A stretch of DNA of 64,000 bases from Fictibacillus arsenicus (GTDB lineage Bacteria; Bacillota; Bacilli; Bacillales; Fictibacillaceae): the NCBI RefSeq assembly GCF_001642935.1, contig NZ_CP016761.1, forward strand, positions 3,596,001 through 3,660,000. Reading direction: 5' to 3'. This document shows, in pieces, positions 4,108-63,708 of this stretch. Under the pieces are notes generated by a model. That model searched no databases. It had not been told where the DNA came from and was given only the letters and a program-made list of their open reading frames with translations. Each line of letters opens with the position of its first letter. The stretch's first letter is position 1. The translations under genes were made by a program, and so were the position numbers.

Positions 4108-5007
4108 TTAAAGCGTTACTGATACTTTCTCAGATTCTACTTTTTCTCCCTTTTCATTGTAGGTATAGAATCCCCGCCCCGTTTTTCTTCCGAGATTTCC
4201 AGATTCCACAAGCTTTTTTAACAATGGTGCAGGACGATATTTCGAATCATCAAATCCTTCATACAGACCTTTCATTGTTGCTAATAATACGTCTAATCCT
4301 ACAAAGTCCGCTAACATGATAGGGCCCATTTTATGATTAGCTCCAAACTTCATTGCATCATCCACATCTTCGGGTTTTGCACCTTCCATGACACAGTAGA
4401 TCGCTTCATTGACCATAGGTATCAACATACGGTTTACTAGGAAACCCGGATAGTCCTTACAAGTAACGCCATTCTTTCCGATATCTTTTACAAACTGAAG
4501 TGTTGTATCATATGTCTCTGATGAAGTAACTATGGATGGGATAATTTCTACTAAATTCATAATTGGTGCAGGATAAAAGAAATGCAGTCCTATTACTTTT
4601 TCGGGTCGTTTTGTGGATCCTCCGATTGCAGCAATAGATAAACCTGATGTGTTTGATGCTAATATCGCATCTTCATTGAGGATATGATCTAGTTGAGTAA
4701 ATACTTTCTTCTTGATTTCTAATTCTTCTGGAACAGCTTCAATGACTAAATCAGCGTCATGAATTTCGTTGATTTCAAAGGTTGCATGAACATGTTGTAG
4801 TGTTTTTTGAACGTGCTCGGCAGGGCATTTCCCTTTCTCCGCTTTACGTTGGAGATTCTTTTCAATTAAATCTACCGCTTTCTGCAAACGCTCCTGGTCA
4901 ACCTCAACCATGTAGACATCTTTTCCAGACTCTGCGATCACTTGAGTAATACCTGAACCCATGAGTCCTCCGCCAATTACAGCTACTTTATTAATTGCCT
5001 TCATCAT
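4108..5007 (-). CDS. 3-hydroxyacyl-CoA (3-hydroxybutyryl-CoA) dehydrogenase
   Basis: NAD-dependent oxidation of (S)-3-hydroxyacyl-CoA to 3-ketoacyl-CoA in the cytoplasm. 299 residues, close to the usual 280-300. The N-terminal Rossmann motif [14 protein letters not shown] is at residues 8-21; [17 protein letters not shown] carries the catalytic His, and [11 protein letters not shown] the Glu region; the C-terminal helical domain with GFLVNRML follows. Two ATGs are adjacent, so the start may be 5004. The next gene upstream is an SDR that may act on the opposite enantiomer, giving the operon access to both hydroxyacyl-CoA stereoisomers. Confidence 0.93.
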
Positions 5008-9476: not shown

Positions 9477-9920
9477 ATGATCTATATTTTACTTCTGTTT
9501 GCTCTAATTGCAGGCATGGCACTACCAACACAATTCAGCATCAATGCGCAGTTAAGGACTTTAGTCGGTTCTCCTATCCTGGCATCCACCATTTCATTTA
9601 TTGTTGGATCGATCGCACTGTTGATTATTTCATTCTTTAATCATGGAATAAAAGTTAGTAAAGGTTGGATAGAGGCACCTTGGTGGGTTTGGACAGGCGG
9701 CCTGTTAGGGGCTTTTTATGTAGTTGCCACCATTGTCTTAATACCTAGAATCGGTGCAGCATCAACAGTAGCTTTCATTCTAACTGGACAAATCATAGCT
9801 TCTGTACTCATTGATCATTTTGGACTTCTTGGGGTGCATGTTCAGCCGATCAATCTCTTTAAACTTATTGGGGTTTCCCTCATTATTATAGGGGTGTATT
9901 TTGTACAGAAATATAAATAA
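9477..9920 (+). CDS. DMT-superfamily small transporter (YdcZ/DUF606 type)
   Basis: 147-residue integral membrane protein with about five hydrophobic helices and almost no soluble part. The order MALPTQFSINAQLRTLVGSPILA, GLLGAFYVVATIVLIPRIGAA and LTGQIIASVLIDHFG matches the YdcZ (DUF606) branch of the drug/metabolite transporter superfamily. These half-size proteins often act as pairs, but no partner is adjacent. It stands alone between a divergent glycerate kinase gene and a terminator. Ribosome site AGGGGG lies about 10 bases before the ATG. The substrate is unknown. Confidence 0.82.
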   Translation: MIYILLLFALIAGMALPTQFSINAQLRTLVGSPILASTISFIVGSIALLIISFFNHGIKVSKGWIEAPWWVWTGGLLGAFYVVATIVLIPRIGAASTVAFILTGQIIASVLIDHFGLLGVHVQPINLFKLIGVSLIIIGVYFVQKYK

Positions 9921-57076: not shown

Positions 57077-58048
57077 TTATTTTAATTGAATGAATTCTTG
57101 TGATTGCAGCGCATTCTTATATTCAAGTGTTAGTTCTTCTACAACATCCTTAACTCTTGAAACATTCTTAACACTTCCTACTCCTTGTCCAGCTGACCAG
57201 ATATCTTTCCAGGCTTTAGCCTTGGATTCTGAGAATGACAGATCTACAGAATCTTTTTTCAGCATGTTGTCCACATCATACCCTGCTCTTTTCAAGGATG
57301 GTAAAAGATAATTTCCTTTGATTCCGCTTATTGCATCCGTATAGATGAGATCTTCTAACGTCGACTCAATCAGCATCTGTCTGTATTCTTCACTTGCCGA
57401 TGATTCTTCTGTCGCGATAAAACGAGTACCCATGTATACCAAGTCTGCTCCAAGGATTTTAGCAGCCAAAATTTCTTCTCCCGTTGAAATAGCGCCCGCC
57501 AGTATCGTAATTCCATCCCAAAACTCTTTAACAGCTTTTAAGAAAGCAAACGGATTCAGTGTTCCCCCATGTCCTCCTGCCCCGCTGCAGACTAAGATAA
57601 GGCCATCAATCCCTGTTTTAGCTGCTTTACGTGCGTGATCGAGTGAAATAACATCTGAAAAAACAAGTCCACCATAACTGTGAACGATTTTTGCTACATC
57701 GCTTGGGTTTCCAAGAGACGTGATGACGATAGGCGGTTCGTATTTTTTTATGAGCTCCATGTCTTCCTCAAAACGTTTATTGGTGCGATGCACAATTAGA
57801 TTGACACCCCAAGGAGCTATTTTAGCGTTAGGATCTGATTGTTGAACTTGTGTAAGTTCTTCTGAAATACGAATCATCCAGTTTTCTAAAAGTTCCGATG
57901 TTCTTGCATTTAATAGAGGAAACGTGCCTACAATTCCGTTTTTACAGCTTTCAATAACCATATCAGGACTTGATACTAAAAACATCGGCGCATTAATAAT
58001 AGGTAATGCGAGCTGATTCGACAGGCTTAGTGGCAATTTATCAGACAT
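57077..58048 (-). CDS. nitronate monooxygenase (2-nitropropane dioxygenase family)
   Basis: FMN-dependent TIM-barrel flavoprotein of 323 residues that oxidises alkyl nitronates. PIINAPMFLVSSPDMVIESC at the N-terminus, then ILVCSGAGGHGG and ILAGAISTGEEILAAKILGA form the FMN phosphate site; GTRFIATEESSASEEYRQ follows. Length and order are normal for the family. It is transcribed alone, divergent to sinI, with its own strong terminator. The physiological role is probably removal of toxic nitronates such as propionate 3-nitronate. Confidence 0.9.
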   Translation of the reverse strand: MSDKLPLSLSNQLALPIINAPMFLVSSPDMVIESCKNGIVGTFPLLNARTSELLENWMIRISEELTQVQQSDPNAKIAPWGVNLIVHRTNKRFEEDMELIKKYEPPIVITSLGNPSDVAKIVHSYGGLVFSDVISLDHARKAAKTGIDGLILVCSGAGGHGGTLNPFAFLKAVKEFWDGITILAGAISTGEEILAAKILGADLVYMGTRFIATEESSASEEYRQMLIESTLEDLIYTDAISGIKGNYLLPSLKRAGYDVDNMLKKDSVDLSFSESKAKAWKDIWSAGQGVGSVKNVSRVKDVVEELTLEYKNALQSQEFIQLK

Positions 58049-58219
58049 ATTGCTTCATCCTTTCATTCAAGAACGTTTATTAGTAGGAATATTCTATACT
58101 TTAATTTCCACAATCCTTTCGCCAATCCTTTTATTTTAATTTATAGGGGTAGTAATATTTTTCTAATATTACATTTATATTACAGCCATTTTCTGACAAC
58201 ATTCTCTTATTTGCTTGTA

Positions 58220-58225
58220 TATAAT
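58220..58225 (+). promoter_or_regulatory. probable -10 box of the sinI transcript
   Basis: TATAAT lies 34 bases before the riboswitch core, as expected for a riboswitch leader. No good -35 at 17 bases is seen, which may mean an activator such as Spo0A is needed. Confidence 0.5.
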
Positions 58226-58258
58226 CAATTTGTGTTAGGAAATTTTACCTAATCATCC

Positions 58259-58344
58259 TTCAGACAAGGGCAAACATTCTCGAAAGAAATGGGCGCAAAG
58301 CCACGGGTCTAAGGCTTATTGCTAAGATCGCCGGGTTACCTGAA
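58259..58344 (+). promoter_or_regulatory. cyclic-di-GMP-I (GEMM) riboswitch in front of sinI
   Basis: The conserved core is present in order: GGGCAAAC (58268-58275), GAAA loop near 58282-58285, GGGCGCAAAGCC (58291-58302), GGGTCTAAGG, then CGCCGGGTTACC (58329-58340). A closing stem pairs TTCAG (58259-58263) with CTGAA (58340-58344). The GGG before CAAAC is intact, as in c-di-GMP-binding members. It ends 29 bases before the sinI GTG, with no terminator between, so the control is probably at translation initiation. Confidence 0.9.
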
Positions 58345-58373
58345 CAAAAAAGCTTATCTGGAGGGATTTTTTA

Positions 58374-58517
58374 GTGGAAAATATTTTGACGTTGGATCGA
58401 GAGTGGATTGAATTGATGAAAGAAGCTAGAGATCACGGTTTCACTAAAGAAGAGATTATGAACTTTTTACAAAATCCTCAATTGGCAATGAATGAATACC
58501 TACTACAAGAAAATTAG
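58374..58517 (+). CDS. sinI: SinI-like anti-repressor
   Basis: 47-residue protein, GTG start 8 bases behind GGAGGG. Its core LDREWIELMKEARDHGFTKE with EEIMNFLQNP is the SinI/SinR dimerisation helix pair, and it resembles the C-terminus of the SinR encoded next to it (LDQEWADLVKEAMGSGVSKE). In B. subtilis SinI binds SinR and frees the biofilm genes. The gene lies in a riboswitch leader, so its translation is probably tied to cyclic-di-GMP. Slightly shorter than B. subtilis SinI (57 residues). Confidence 0.9.
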   Translation: MENILTLDREWIELMKEARDHGFTKEEIMNFLQNPQLAMNEYLLQEN

Positions 58518-58537
58518 TAAGCAGGTCTCATAATTTA

Positions 58538-58566
58538 TTTACTTCCCAAATGTAGAAAGATATAAT
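58538..58566 (+). promoter_or_regulatory. sigma-A promoter in front of sinR
   Basis: TTTACT (58538-58543), 17-base spacer, TATAAT (58561-58566). It lies between sinI and sinR, so sinR can be transcribed without the riboswitch, as with the separate sinR promoter in B. subtilis. Confidence 0.65.
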
Positions 58567-58600
58567 AAAAGCAAATTACTACTAAATGGGGATGCAGATG

Positions 58601-58921
58601 ATGATTGGTGAACGCGTAAAAAAATACCGAACTGAAAAAGGCCTCTCCATTACAGCACTGGCTGATAAAGCAGGGGTTGCAAAATCGTACATAAGTGCTT
58701 TGGAGCGTAATATTCAACAAAATCCATCAATCCAGCTTCTCGAGAAGATTGCTGATGTATTGAATATTCCAGTCGATCACTTAATAATGCCTGAAGTTGA
58801 TACTCAAAACCTAGACCAGGAATGGGCCGATCTTGTTAAAGAAGCCATGGGTTCCGGTGTAAGCAAAGAACAATTTAAAGAGTTTCTTGAATTTAATAAA
58901 TGGAAAAACAAACAAAATTAA
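58601..58921 (+). CDS. sinR: SinR, biofilm master repressor
   Basis: XRE-family DNA-binding protein of 106 residues. The helix-turn-helix is IGERVKKYRTEKGLSITALA with DKAGVAKSYISALERNIQQN, very close to B. subtilis SinR (KAGVAKSYLSSIERN). The C-terminal helices LDQEWADLVKEAMGSGVSKE and FKEFLEFNKWKNKQ are the SinI-binding region. I use the ATG at 58601 by homology; in-frame ATGs at 58586, 58592 and 58598 are possible. It should repress matrix genes, possibly the exopolysaccharide operon at 15433-25047. Confidence 0.94.
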   Translation: MIGERVKKYRTEKGLSITALADKAGVAKSYISALERNIQQNPSIQLLEKIADVLNIPVDHLIMPEVDTQNLDQEWADLVKEAMGSGVSKEQFKEFLEFNKWKNKQN

Positions 58922-58926
58922 TTGAG

Positions 58927-58957
58927 CCACCAGATAAAGATATCTGGTGGTTTTTTC
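58927..58957 (+). terminator. terminator of the sinI-sinR unit
   Basis: CCACCAGATA (58927-58936) pairs with TATCTGGTGG (58941-58950), followed by TTTTTT. Confidence 0.9.
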
Positions 58958-59006
58958 TTTTTTAGGATGTCTTCGTGGAAAGAACAAAGAAGGGGTTTGT
59001 CTTTTT

Positions 59007-59034
59007 ATGGGGACAGACCCGGGTCTGTCCCCAT
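59007..59034. repeat. GGGGACAGACCC palindrome, copy C
   Basis: Perfect 28-bp palindrome ATGGGGACAGACCC plus reverse complement, between sinR and the RsbR-like gene. A partial copy (AGGGGTTTGTC) lies just upstream. Confidence 0.85.
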
Positions 59035-59118
59035 GTCGAAAAAATTAAGTTTCATCCAATACAATTAAGGGTAAAAGATAAGGGTGTTTGTATTTTTTAG
59101 CCTATGGAGGAAATAGAT

Positions 59119-60165
59119 ATGAATAAGACGCCGAATGAATTATTTGATACTCAAAAAAGTGTAGATGTAAATGGTTCTTCTTTTGAATGGGACACTTCCA
59201 AGGGAATTTTCCAATTTGAAGGCGGAGACGTCATGCTGTTTTGGATCGATTCAGCGTTTAAAGTTTTTCTTGATTCTATTGAGGAAATTACAGGTGAAGG
59301 TACAGCTGACCTCGTTTTTGAAACAGCTGGATACCGAACCGGTTTAGTAGTTAGTGATTTTTATAAAAATAAGATTGGCGATATTAAAACGTCCATAGAA
59401 GCCCTGCCAAATATCTATGTAACAGCCGGCTGGGGTAAAACGTTTATCGATGTGAATATAGAAAAGAAAGAAGCAGTGATCACAATCTCCAACAGCTGGG
59501 AAACAAAGGTTAAAAAAGCGCAAGGAAGTAAGCGTATGGGACGCTTCTTACCTGGCCACTGGGCAGGTGTTTTCACTGGATTGTTTGATACACATATGTG
59601 GTATGAAGTTCAAGAGGATGACTCCACATCTGATTTACTAAAAATAAAAATTACTGAGACAGATATTACTCCTAGCGATAATATTCGTGATCTTGTTCAG
59701 CGTGAAGAACAAAACGAAATCATGAAGCTTGAAGCGATGGTTGAGAATCGCACGCGCGAGTTAACAGATCTTATTAGAGAAATTTCATCACCAATCATAC
59801 CTGTAACCGATCATATTGTGGTTATTCCGTTGATCGGTAAATATAATGAGCTGCGTTCTAAAGATATGCTGGAGCATACACTTACGTCGCTGCCGCAGCA
59901 TAGAGCGAAGATTGTGATTTTAGATTTGACAGGTATCAAGTCGATTGATTCAGAGATGATTGATATGTTAAATAAACTCGTTTCTTCTGCCCGTTTGTTT
60001 GGAATGGAAACGCTGCTTGTAGGTATCTCCCCAGAGTTGAGTATGGAAGTAACGAAACACCAATATTCTTTAGGTGATAGCACTTATTTTAGAAACCTTA
60101 AGCATGCGATTCATTTCGCTTTTGCAAAGGAAGGCATGTTCATTCAAGAGCCGAGTCAGCCTTAA
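59119..60165 (+). CDS. RsbR-like STAS protein with N-terminal V4R-like sensor domain
   Basis: 348 residues. The N-terminal 190 residues resemble the XylR_N/V4R type of small-molecule sensor (FEWDTSKGIFQFEGGDVMLF, FLPGHWAGVFTGLF). A short coiled linker (QNEIMKLEAMVENRTRELT) precedes the STAS domain: ISSPIIPVTDHIVVIPLIGK and VILDLTGIKSIDSEMIDML, with the Thr that RsbR proteins phosphorylate. Such proteins form the stressosome that feeds sigma-B. ATG at 59119, 8 bases behind GGAGG; ATG at 59104 overlaps it. Monocistronic. Confidence 0.87.
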   Translation: MNKTPNELFDTQKSVDVNGSSFEWDTSKGIFQFEGGDVMLFWIDSAFKVFLDSIEEITGEGTADLVFETAGYRTGLVVSDFYKNKIGDIKTSIEALPNIYVTAGWGKTFIDVNIEKKEAVITISNSWETKVKKAQGSKRMGRFLPGHWAGVFTGLFDTHMWYEVQEDDSTSDLLKIKITETDITPSDNIRDLVQREEQNEIMKLEAMVENRTRELTDLIREISSPIIPVTDHIVVIPLIGKYNELRSKDMLEHTLTSLPQHRAKIVILDLTGIKSIDSEMIDMLNKLVSSARLFGMETLLVGISPELSMEVTKHQYSLGDSTYFRNLKHAIHFAFAKEGMFIQEPSQP

Positions 60166-62545: not shown

Positions 62546-62863
62546 ATGGGCAAAAACGTATATTCAAAAGAAACAAAGTGGGCTGTTGTTAAGGATAAAA
62601 TGAGTGGCCAATTTACGAATGAAGAAATTATGAATAAGTATGGCATTAAAAATGTTTCGCAAATAAAAACATGGGTGAAATGGTATCGTGAAAATCAAGT
62701 ACACCGGTTTAATCAGCCAATAGGCAAACAATACTCTTACGGTCTTGGACCTGATTCAGCTAGTGAAGAGGAAAAAAAGGACCGTCAATTCAATCACTAT
62801 AAACAGGAGAATGAAATCTTAAAAAAGTATTTGGAGATCGAAAAGGAGTTGAAAAAGAAGTAG
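62546..62863 (+). CDS. IS3-family transposase OrfA
   Basis: 105 residues. Helix-turn-helix DNA-binding protein with KWAVVKDKMSGQFTNEEIMN and IKNVSQIKTWVKWYREN, and a C-terminal coiled stretch (EILKKYLEIEKELKKK). It binds the IS ends. The end of the gene contains GAAAAAG (62851-62857), where ribosomes can slip by -1 to make the OrfAB fusion transposase: in the -1 frame the reading continues KEVVLRLVKKLRKKYTV without a stop. Confidence 0.9.
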   Translation: MGKNVYSKETKWAVVKDKMSGQFTNEEIMNKYGIKNVSQIKTWVKWYRENQVHRFNQPIGKQYSYGLGPDSASEEEKKDRQFNHYKQENEILKKYLEIEKELKKK

Positions 62864-62871
62864 TTCTCCGT

Positions 62872-63708
62872 TTGGTAAAAAAATTACGAAAAAAGTACAC
62901 GGTTACGGCTATTCTAAGCGCGCTAAACGTTCCAAGGTCCACATACTATCGTTGGGTGTCTACTCCATCTAATGATTTGTCTAAATCAGAGAAGGTCATT
63001 ATCTCACTTTGTGAAGAGACTAACTATCGGTATGGACATCGTAAAATTAAGAATTTACTTAAACGTCGATATCAAATTAGTTTGAATCGAAATTCGGTGC
63101 AACGTATTATGCAAAAGCATCATCTACAGTGCCGTGTAAAGCCAAAGCGCAAGTGGAAATCTCAAGGGGAATCCATCATTGTCGCACCAAACATTTTAAA
63201 TCGAGATTTTTCAGCAGCTCGACCTAATCAAAAGTGGGTAACAGATATAACATATGTTCAATATGGTTCTATTACATTGTACCTATCGACCATAATGGAT
63301 TTATTTAATAATCAAATTGTGGCTCACAAGCTCTATACCCATCAACAAGTTCCTCTTGTGGCAGATACCTTAAAAGCAGCTTTGGAATCACGAGGGAACC
63401 CCAAAGGGGTTATAATCCACTCAGATCAAGGAAGTGTGTATACATCCTATGGGTATCAACAACTAATAAAGGATAGGAAATTGGTCAGCAGTATGTCCAG
63501 AAGAGGAAATTGTTGGGATAATGCGGTTATTGAGTCCTTCCATTCCAATCTAAAATCTGAAGAATTTCAATATGTGAAGTTTAATTCTATGCCGATAGAT
63601 AAAATCAGGGAAAAAGTAGATCAGTACATGAAGTATTATAATGAAGAGCGTATACAAGAAAAATTAGGCTACCACACCCCAATTGAATTTGGTAGTATGG
63701 CAGCCTAA
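62872..63708 (+). CDS. IS3-family transposase OrfB (integrase core)
   Basis: 278 residues from a TTG at 62872, though it is probably made as a fusion with OrfA. DDE residues are all present: first Asp in KWVTDITYVQYG, second in IIHSDQGSVYTS, Glu in NCWDNAVIESFHSNLKSEEF. SALNVPRSTYYRW is the HTH_21 region. ERIQEKLGYHTPIEF closes the core. Intact, without stops or frameshifts. Confidence 0.92.
   Translation: MVKKLRKKYTVTAILSALNVPRSTYYRWVSTPSNDLSKSEKVIISLCEETNYRYGHRKIKNLLKRRYQISLNRNSVQRIMQKHHLQCRVKPKRKWKSQGESIIVAPNILNRDFSAARPNQKWVTDITYVQYGSITLYLSTIMDLFNNQIVAHKLYTHQQVPLVADTLKAALESRGNPKGVIIHSDQGSVYTSYGYQQLIKDRKLVSSMSRRGNCWDNAVIESFHSNLKSEEFQYVKFNSMPIDKIREKVDQYMKYYNEERIQEKLGYHTPIEFGSMAA

Follow-up and report, generated by a model that had tools for sequence, protein, structure and literature searches.

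A c-di-GMP-I (GEMM-I) aptamer lies directly before a sinI-like gene in the window (the whole 64-kb stretch of DNA that was analysed), and both the identity of the aptamer and its placement before sinI are certain. The arrangement is widespread and not special to the window genome, and because it recurs in many relatives, c-di-GMP probably feeds the sin switch directly. The gene sinI releases the brake on biofilm formation, and a riboswitch in its leader would connect c-di-GMP, a messenger that promotes a sessile lifestyle in many bacteria, directly with the SinI/SinR switch. Read from sequence and modelled folds, the sinI leader is quite probably a translational riboswitch that is turned on by its ligand. 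The features of the locus are collected in Table 1.

Table 1. Features of the sinI-sinR locus, in window positions.
Feature	Position	Strand	Basis
Weak Spo0A-box-like site GTTGTCAGA	58191..58200	-	By eye; at 58192-58200, 7/9 to the assumed consensus TTTGTCRAA
TATAAT, probable -10 of sinI promoter	58220..58225	+	Read from sequence
Anti-Shine-Dalgarno (anti-SD) segment UCCUUCAGA	58256..58264	+	Overlaps P1 5' strand; pairs with 58357-58365 in unconstrained fold
c-di-GMP-I (GEMM-I) aptamer	58259..58343	+	RF01051, 70.4 bits, E 9.1e-12; covariation over 86 sinI-linked homologues
P1 5' strand UUCAG	58259..58263	+	Pairs with 58340-58344
P1 3' strand CUGAA	58340..58344	+	Pairs with 58259-58263
Shine-Dalgarno (SD) region UCUGGAGGG, anti-SD target	58357..58365	+	Sequence, unconstrained and constrained folds
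sinI-like gene, 47 aa, GTG start	58374..58517	+	PF08671 42.6 bits; PDB SinI 1b0n_B E 8.8e-4
Promoter-like site TTTACT-17-TATAAT for sinR	58538..58566	+	Consensus match
sinR-like gene, 106 aa, HTH and SinI dimerisation domain	58601..58921	+	PF01381, PF08671, 1b0n_A
Terminator-like hairpin after sinR, 13 pairs	58924..58953	+	Scan: 1 found, 1.0 expected

The aptamer and the sin genes of the window

The original prediction had placed a complete GEMM-I core 29 bases before a SinI-like gene, itself followed by sinR, and the database searches confirmed it. In an Rfam scan of the 64-kb window, the RF01051 match spanned model positions 1-87, the full length, and its score stood against a gathering cut-off of 35 bits, the PF08671 and 1b0n_A matches identified the two genes, and the distance from the aptamer 3' end to the sinI GTG was 30 nt when counted from the Rfam end, which agrees within one base. 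RF01051 c-di-GMP-I was the sole Rfam family to reach the gathering threshold in the whole window (one overlapping match of the same clan was omitted from the window list). Using an alignment of 86 sinI-linked homologues fitted to the covariance model, 94.2% of the helix cells were paired, and the covariation score was 0.441, whereas shuffles gave 0.228 and slid controls no more than 0.106. Both-sided changes were seen at 15 of the 21 aptamer pairs, with 0/500 shuffles as high, and the aptamer core was nearly invariant.

At the ligand-contact position the window has G, as do 85 of the 86 homologues, and the one left has A; we take this G to correspond to Vc2 G20, the position at which cGAMP-type aptamers carry A. 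A reading in which the aptamer mainly senses another ligand, 3',3'-cGAMP or a variant, could appeal to the single homologue with A and to four sinI-linked loci (L076 and L077 of the family, L092 and L267) that score best with RF03167 c-di-GMP-I-GGC, an Rfam family separate from RF01051. That reading is very unlikely given that the window itself scores best with RF01051, that the G is so widely kept, and that there are seven GGDEF matches in the genome, whose proteins could be the source of c-di-GMP.

The SinI-like ORF passed the Pfam SinI cut-off (31.4 bits for PF08671), and its nearest solved relative was B. subtilis SinI. The 47-aa protein missed the cut-off of the NCBIfam SinI equivalog NF046031 (31.8 bits vs 80), and it is named SinI-like by domain and position, not as an equivalog, with binding to SinR predicted. 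The sinR-like protein scored 62.7 bits with PF01381 and 51.3 bits with PF08671 at its C terminus, its best solved relative was B. subtilis SinR, with a match of 122 bits that covers residues 1-105, and the closest named SinR matches were from Fictibacillus among the matches listed, a list that may omit records of the genome itself. On these matches, the window most probably belongs to a Fictibacillus genome.

The TATAAT before the aptamer was kept in 17 of 18 genus genomes; no good -35 was found at 16-18 nt from it, and the promoter consensus scan did not call the site. The same scan found three promoter-like sites in the region where 4.3 were expected. The TTTACT-17-TATAAT stretch before sinR was visible in 9/9 genus loci read on the plus strand, and sinR of B. 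subtilis has its own promoter. A palindrome, GGGGACAGACCCGGGTCTGTCCCC, follows sinR at about 59008-59033 of the window and is present after sinR in L038-L040 too; a second window copy at about 60300 is suggested by the ORF translations. The palindrome is a dispersed repeat. At 62546-63708 of the window, two ORFs resemble an IS3-type transposase pair by their translations.

Recurrence of the arrangement and sinI as the target

A survey of sinI leaders in relatives, proposed with the original prediction, found the aptamer again in 18/18 genus genomes and at 58 of 101 further loci of the order. The genus of 18 genomes is a GTDB-type grouping, own genome included, with the best SinR match just downstream of RF01051 in each, and named Fictibacillus loci were counted apart. 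Since a SinI-like ORF follows the element in each of these 18 genomes, a chance placement is ruled out. Among the matches listed, the named Fictibacillus loci had the riboswitch in 7 of 10, and it was absent in F. fluitans, F. enclensis, and F. solisalsi. Some Fictibacillus-like genomes, these three species among them (L067, L069, L072, L075, L187, L198, and L203), have sinI-sinR without a riboswitch, and in these a second SinI-domain ORF is convergent to the riboswitch-less pair. Family loci outside the genus had the riboswitch in 8 of 12 cases by Rfam (six RF01051, two RF03167).

For the order, 150 genomes were drawn; 105 of them matched SinR with an E value no worse than 1e-25, and four of these 105 are from the genus. 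The 58 riboswitches at the 101 loci outside the genus were distributed over 26 of 38 families. The split of these loci was 38 with riboswitch and tandem sinI, 20 with riboswitch and convergent sinI, 20 with tandem sinI lacking the riboswitch, and 5 with convergent sinI lacking it; sinI was not seen at 17. One more convergent locus, L277 (23 bits), is below the Rfam cut-off and was excluded from the 58; it is still counted in the 153 leaders used for spacing and hairpins and in the 155 used for the Spo0A-box scan. For order loci L104-L178 (n=75), the analysis began with the upstream side; downstream sequence was then included for the 29 that had no upstream sinI, and it was left out for 16 order loci with a riboswitch-less upstream sinI. 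The riboswitch was also found at 68 of the best 80 named SinR loci, a redundant set that includes Fictibacillus, Neobacillus, Mesobacillus, Cytobacillus, and Evansella among those that carry it. Among 200 genomes drawn from the class, 35 matched SinR with an E value no worse than 1e-15, and 23 loci were searched, 18 of them outside the order; 8 of these 18 scored >60 bits and one further locus 40.9 bits. L317-L319, three genomes that belong to a single family outside the order, show the convergent arrangement, and both an SD and a SinI-like ORF can be seen there; no aptamer match was found in a fourth genome of this family (L315). RF01051 was absent from 14 control genomes, B. subtilis among them; GGDEF proteins do occur in B. 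subtilis.

Of the 23 aptamers that went into the survey covariance model (R1), 19 are sinI-linked genus and family loci; the model matches these 19 training loci by construction, and order loci L078-L178 lie outside it except for duplicates. In the sets of 153-156 aptamers, loci from the genus, the order, and the named list are pooled and near-duplicates occur, so that counts over these sets are not independent. L176, whose sinR-like frame has a stop codon though riboswitch and sinI-like ORF are present, was excluded from the SinR alignment.

A recognised SinI-like ORF starts 17-40 nt after the aptamer in 153 of 156 cases (median 29). No SinI start was assigned by script at L215, L251, and L253; the SinI-like ORF of L215 is visible by eye. 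At tandem loci, the target could be suspected to be the operon as a whole. At convergent loci, the riboswitch stays with sinI, and sinR is on the other strand. Because the element goes with sinI when the gene order changes, sinI is its target, and sinR as the target was rejected on the same observation. At three loci (L087, L088, and L239), two sinI-like genes in a row precede sinR, and each of the two has a separate c-di-GMP-I aptamer. With the element keeping this place, it is barely credible that it is a relic, or a mere transcript-stability element with no ligand-dependent effect on sinI: the sinI genes that lack a riboswitch at 25/101 order loci would fit such a reading, and the near-invariant core, the covarying helices over 86 homologues, and the 17-40 nt distance held in 153 leaders all argue against it.

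The convergent loci also bear on the proposal, made for Paenibacillus in PMC9943018, that the element mainly controls sinR through antisense transcription. An element that lies past the 3' end of sinR in the opposite orientation, as that proposal expects, was found at 20 of the 101 order loci (plus one weak match) and at 57 of the best 80 named loci. In the window, the element shares the strand of sinI and sinR and is not antisense at the 3' end, and the convergent loci, including L317-L319 from the class-wide draw, have a SinI-like ORF a few tens of bases downstream of the element, so that sense control of sinI suffices; the available main text of PMC9943018 contains 0 matches to sinI. Antisense control of sinR as the main function is thus highly improbable.

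A terminator platform was likewise rejected. The gap of 17-40 nt between aptamer and start in 153 leaders leaves no room for a terminator, and control must therefore act via translation or RNA stability; the sole terminator-like call at window positions 58000-59120 sits after sinR. Translational control of sinI by the riboswitch is likely.

Probable expression platform and direction of control

The unconstrained MFE structure of the window pairs the anti-SD, which overlaps the P1 5' strand, with the SD. Over the 18 genus genomes, 94.4% of the cells of this anti-SD/SD helix were paired, and no covariation was detected for it. P1 was paired in 90/90 cells in the genus (slid controls 20-62%), with no covariation within the genus (269/500 column shuffles pair as well). 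The folds used for accessibility begin 40 nt 5' of the aptamer and so include a few bases upstream of the likely transcript start. The genus mean for the SD was 0.13 in the free state and 0.42 with the aptamer enforced in constrained folds, the window values were 0.09 and 0.39, and with shuffled flanks the genus SD was 0.32 accessible in the free state. In the model, enforcing the aptamer costs 10.4 kcal/mol on average within the genus and 15.7 kcal/mol outside it, and a gain in accessibility >0.2 was obtained in only 38 of 68 leaders outside the genus.

The window genus has this 5'-type platform. In 95 of 153 leaders, the other P1 strand can serve: a hairpin is possible between the SD (typically GUAUUUUAGG) and the P1 3' strand with its linker (typically CCUGAAAUAC), compared with 26.1 leaders expected from shuffled linkers. 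These hairpins comprise 23 distinct arm pairs with 93.5% of positions paired; the arms were selected for at least 8/10 pairs, and the arm-shuffle result of 0/1000 is inflated by this selection. A loose C-rich pattern close to the P1 5' strand is present in 48 of the remaining 58 leaders, a count made with no control.

Several of the pairing tests were null or weak, and the thermodynamics alone does not prove a switch. Three classes covered 83 of the 86 leaders in the flank-shuffle comparison, in which the share of shuffles with an equally hidden SD was 17% for the genus, 23% for other 5'-type leaders, and 43% for linker-type leaders; by this measure, hiding of the SD in the free state of linker-type leaders was no better than chance. 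Swapping SDs among 5'-type leaders gave -11.24 kcal/mol for own and -11.04 kcal/mol for swapped pairs, with 1562/5000 permutations as good, and the SD swap over all leaders was null. The P1-3'/SD swap gave weak support in linker-type leaders (98/5000 permutations as good) and none over all leaders (704/5000). Duplexes of upstream sequence with the SD clearly beat their own shuffles in just 18 of 153 leaders. As the aptamer-enforced SD of the genus is only about 0.4 accessible at a cost of 10.4 kcal/mol, co-transcriptional folding or tertiary contacts must contribute; we infer that folding during transcription would favour the switch, since the aptamer emerges ahead of the SD.

Both designs use a P1 strand as the anti-SD, and ligand should therefore turn sinI on, a direction that we hold with reasonable but not full confidence. 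The opposite direction, in which the ligand-bound aptamer lowers sinI translation and c-di-GMP would restrain the matrix genes, is unlikely. It could draw on the enforced aptamer leaving the AUCC beside P1 free to pair with the GGAU that ends the SD, where the window SD is 0.39 free, and on 35 of 86 leaders in which the modelled gain in accessibility does not exceed 0.2. Against it, the anti-SD of both platform classes sits on a P1 strand, so that a P1 stabilised by ligand would remove the anti-SD, and the SD is hidden in the unconstrained genus folds.

Proposed circuit and comparison with known systems

With sinI turned on by ligand, the circuit would run as follows. When c-di-GMP is missing, the anti-SD would cover the SD, little SinI would be made, and SinR would hold the matrix genes off. 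When c-di-GMP is present, the aptamer would close P1 and use up the anti-SD, SinI would be translated, and its binding to SinR would free SinR-repressed genes, for example the tasA-like operon of the window genome. In many relatives, equal logic would be reached with the other P1 strand, the 3' strand and linker hairpinning with the SD.

The gene sinI of B. subtilis is under Spo0A control, and the consensus of the Spo0A box (0A box) is taken here to be TTTGTCRAA. Spo0A-type boxes with at least 8/9 matches were found in the 105 bp upstream of the aptamers in 65 of 155 cases (13.8 expected from mononucleotide shuffles), and 14 of the 155 upstream stretches, whose loci are not independent, have a perfect box. 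The window box, at 7/9, is usual for shuffled sequence and no better than chance; its CTGACAA core was kept in 17/18 genus genomes and was absent in L053. The enrichment of these boxes across the set suggests an AND gate, in which transcription of sinI would probably still depend on Spo0A~P and translation on c-di-GMP. Spo0A control would thus probably be retained rather than replaced. The claim of the original prediction that c-di-GMP feeds the biofilm switch stands in part, in that the riboswitch at sinI, its conservation, and the layout of the platform fit a pro-biofilm control; the probable retention of Spo0A control, the translational platform, and the wide distribution of the arrangement go beyond that prediction.

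On the output side, the only PF12389 (TasA/CalY-type) match of the genome falls in the tasA-like gene cluster (L288, genome 3357000-3372000). Five GTTCTTT boxes of the SinR type, presumably GTTCTYT in general form, lie upstream of the tasA-like operon within 168 bp (L288 9267 to 9434), two of them standing as GTTCTTTTTAAAGAAC. Over the whole 15 kb of L288 there are 12 such boxes against 6.67 expected, with 7/200 shuffles having as many. A SinR paralogue in the same locus may be the protein that binds the boxes. The chain from c-di-GMP through SinI and SinR to the matrix operon appears complete in its parts, each link being predicted from sequence.

The whole genome has seven RF01051 matches, of which the sinI aptamer is one. 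Two c-di-GMP-I aptamers, at 4120-4203 and 9603-9695 (+) of L288, flank the tasA-like cluster; both have an altered core (GGUACAAC...GUCACAAAGC), both precede secreted-looking proteins with a Cu_amine_oxidN1 domain, and a sortase, an LPXTG protein, and the SinR paralogue lie between them. Through these aptamers c-di-GMP may also act directly on the matrix locus. At L290 2152-2319 (-), genome near 795360, a c-di-GMP-I aptamer lies before a Spo0E-like protein (PF09388), with a similar gene in L008; the Spo0E-like family comprises Spo0A~P phosphatases, and this gene would tie c-di-GMP to Spo0A as well. At L289 1140-2075 (+), genome near 1542287, an ORF with a GGDEF match has a c-di-GMP-I aptamer before it, a possible feedback.

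The AND gate and an ancestral state of the riboswitch are plausible, the considerations being about evenly balanced. The same even judgement applies to the fuller proposal that c-di-GMP control of sinI is common and probably ancestral in Bacillales and beyond, is joined to Spo0A~P in an AND gate, uses two unrelated designs with an anti-SD on a P1 strand, was lost by B. subtilis, and that, in some reported cases of an 'antisense' sinR riboswitch, the element acts in sense on a sinI that was overlooked. To our knowledge, c-di-GMP has little role in matrix production of model B. subtilis. A sinI riboswitch would explain how c-di-GMP can drive matrix genes in other Bacillaceae, and it predicts that conclusions from B. 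subtilis are not transferable to them.

The riboswitch class is known and its target has been noted once; the breadth and the circuit role were not found described in the open-licence PMC literature. PMC4342826 (2015) lists '(c-di-GMP)-sinI' for B. methanolicus MGA3 in Table 4 (BMMGA3_08510, RNA-seq-mapped 5' UTR), the same riboswitch class before sinI as in the window; it is a single table entry for one species, and the available text gives no survey, platform, direction, or Spo0A link. PMC9943018 (2023) proposes that a c-di-GMP-I riboswitch of Paenibacillus sp. FSL P4, near the sinR homologue P40081_02330, acts antisense to that gene; it is the same class at a sin-type locus. In its available text sinI goes unmentioned, whereas at the convergent loci found here the element is followed immediately by a SinI-like ORF, which suggests sense control of sinI instead. 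The function of the riboswitch at the sin locus was not tested in the available text of either paper. The original prediction, which knew of no described riboswitch control of sinI, was overstated in view of these two reports. The accessible parts of PMC8876208, PMC10240345, and PMC12452182 contain nothing on riboswitch control of sinI, and no published account of the function, prevalence, platform, or Spo0A link of a sinI riboswitch was found in the open-licence PMC literature.

In B. thuringiensis, according to the sections of PMC7793685 that were available, sinI is up at high c-di-GMP in array data, and c-di-GMP acts through an 'on' riboswitch of cbpA and an 'off' riboswitch of mcpA. These are c-di-GMP riboswitches on surface and motility genes in a Bacillus; their targets are effectors, whereas the target in the window is the regulator SinI. 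With the RF01051 class, the window aptamer shares core and helices in a full-length covariance match, and it differs in its target, the anti-repressor of a biofilm switch, and in a translational platform that would reuse a P1 strand. With sinI-sinR of B. subtilis, the window shares the gene order, as we take it to be, the SinI and SinR domains, and a promoter-like site before sinR. B. subtilis has no RF01051 match, whereas the window genome has one before sinI; if the proposal is true, B. subtilis, the basis of the sin-circuit model, is a lineage that lost the sinI riboswitch.
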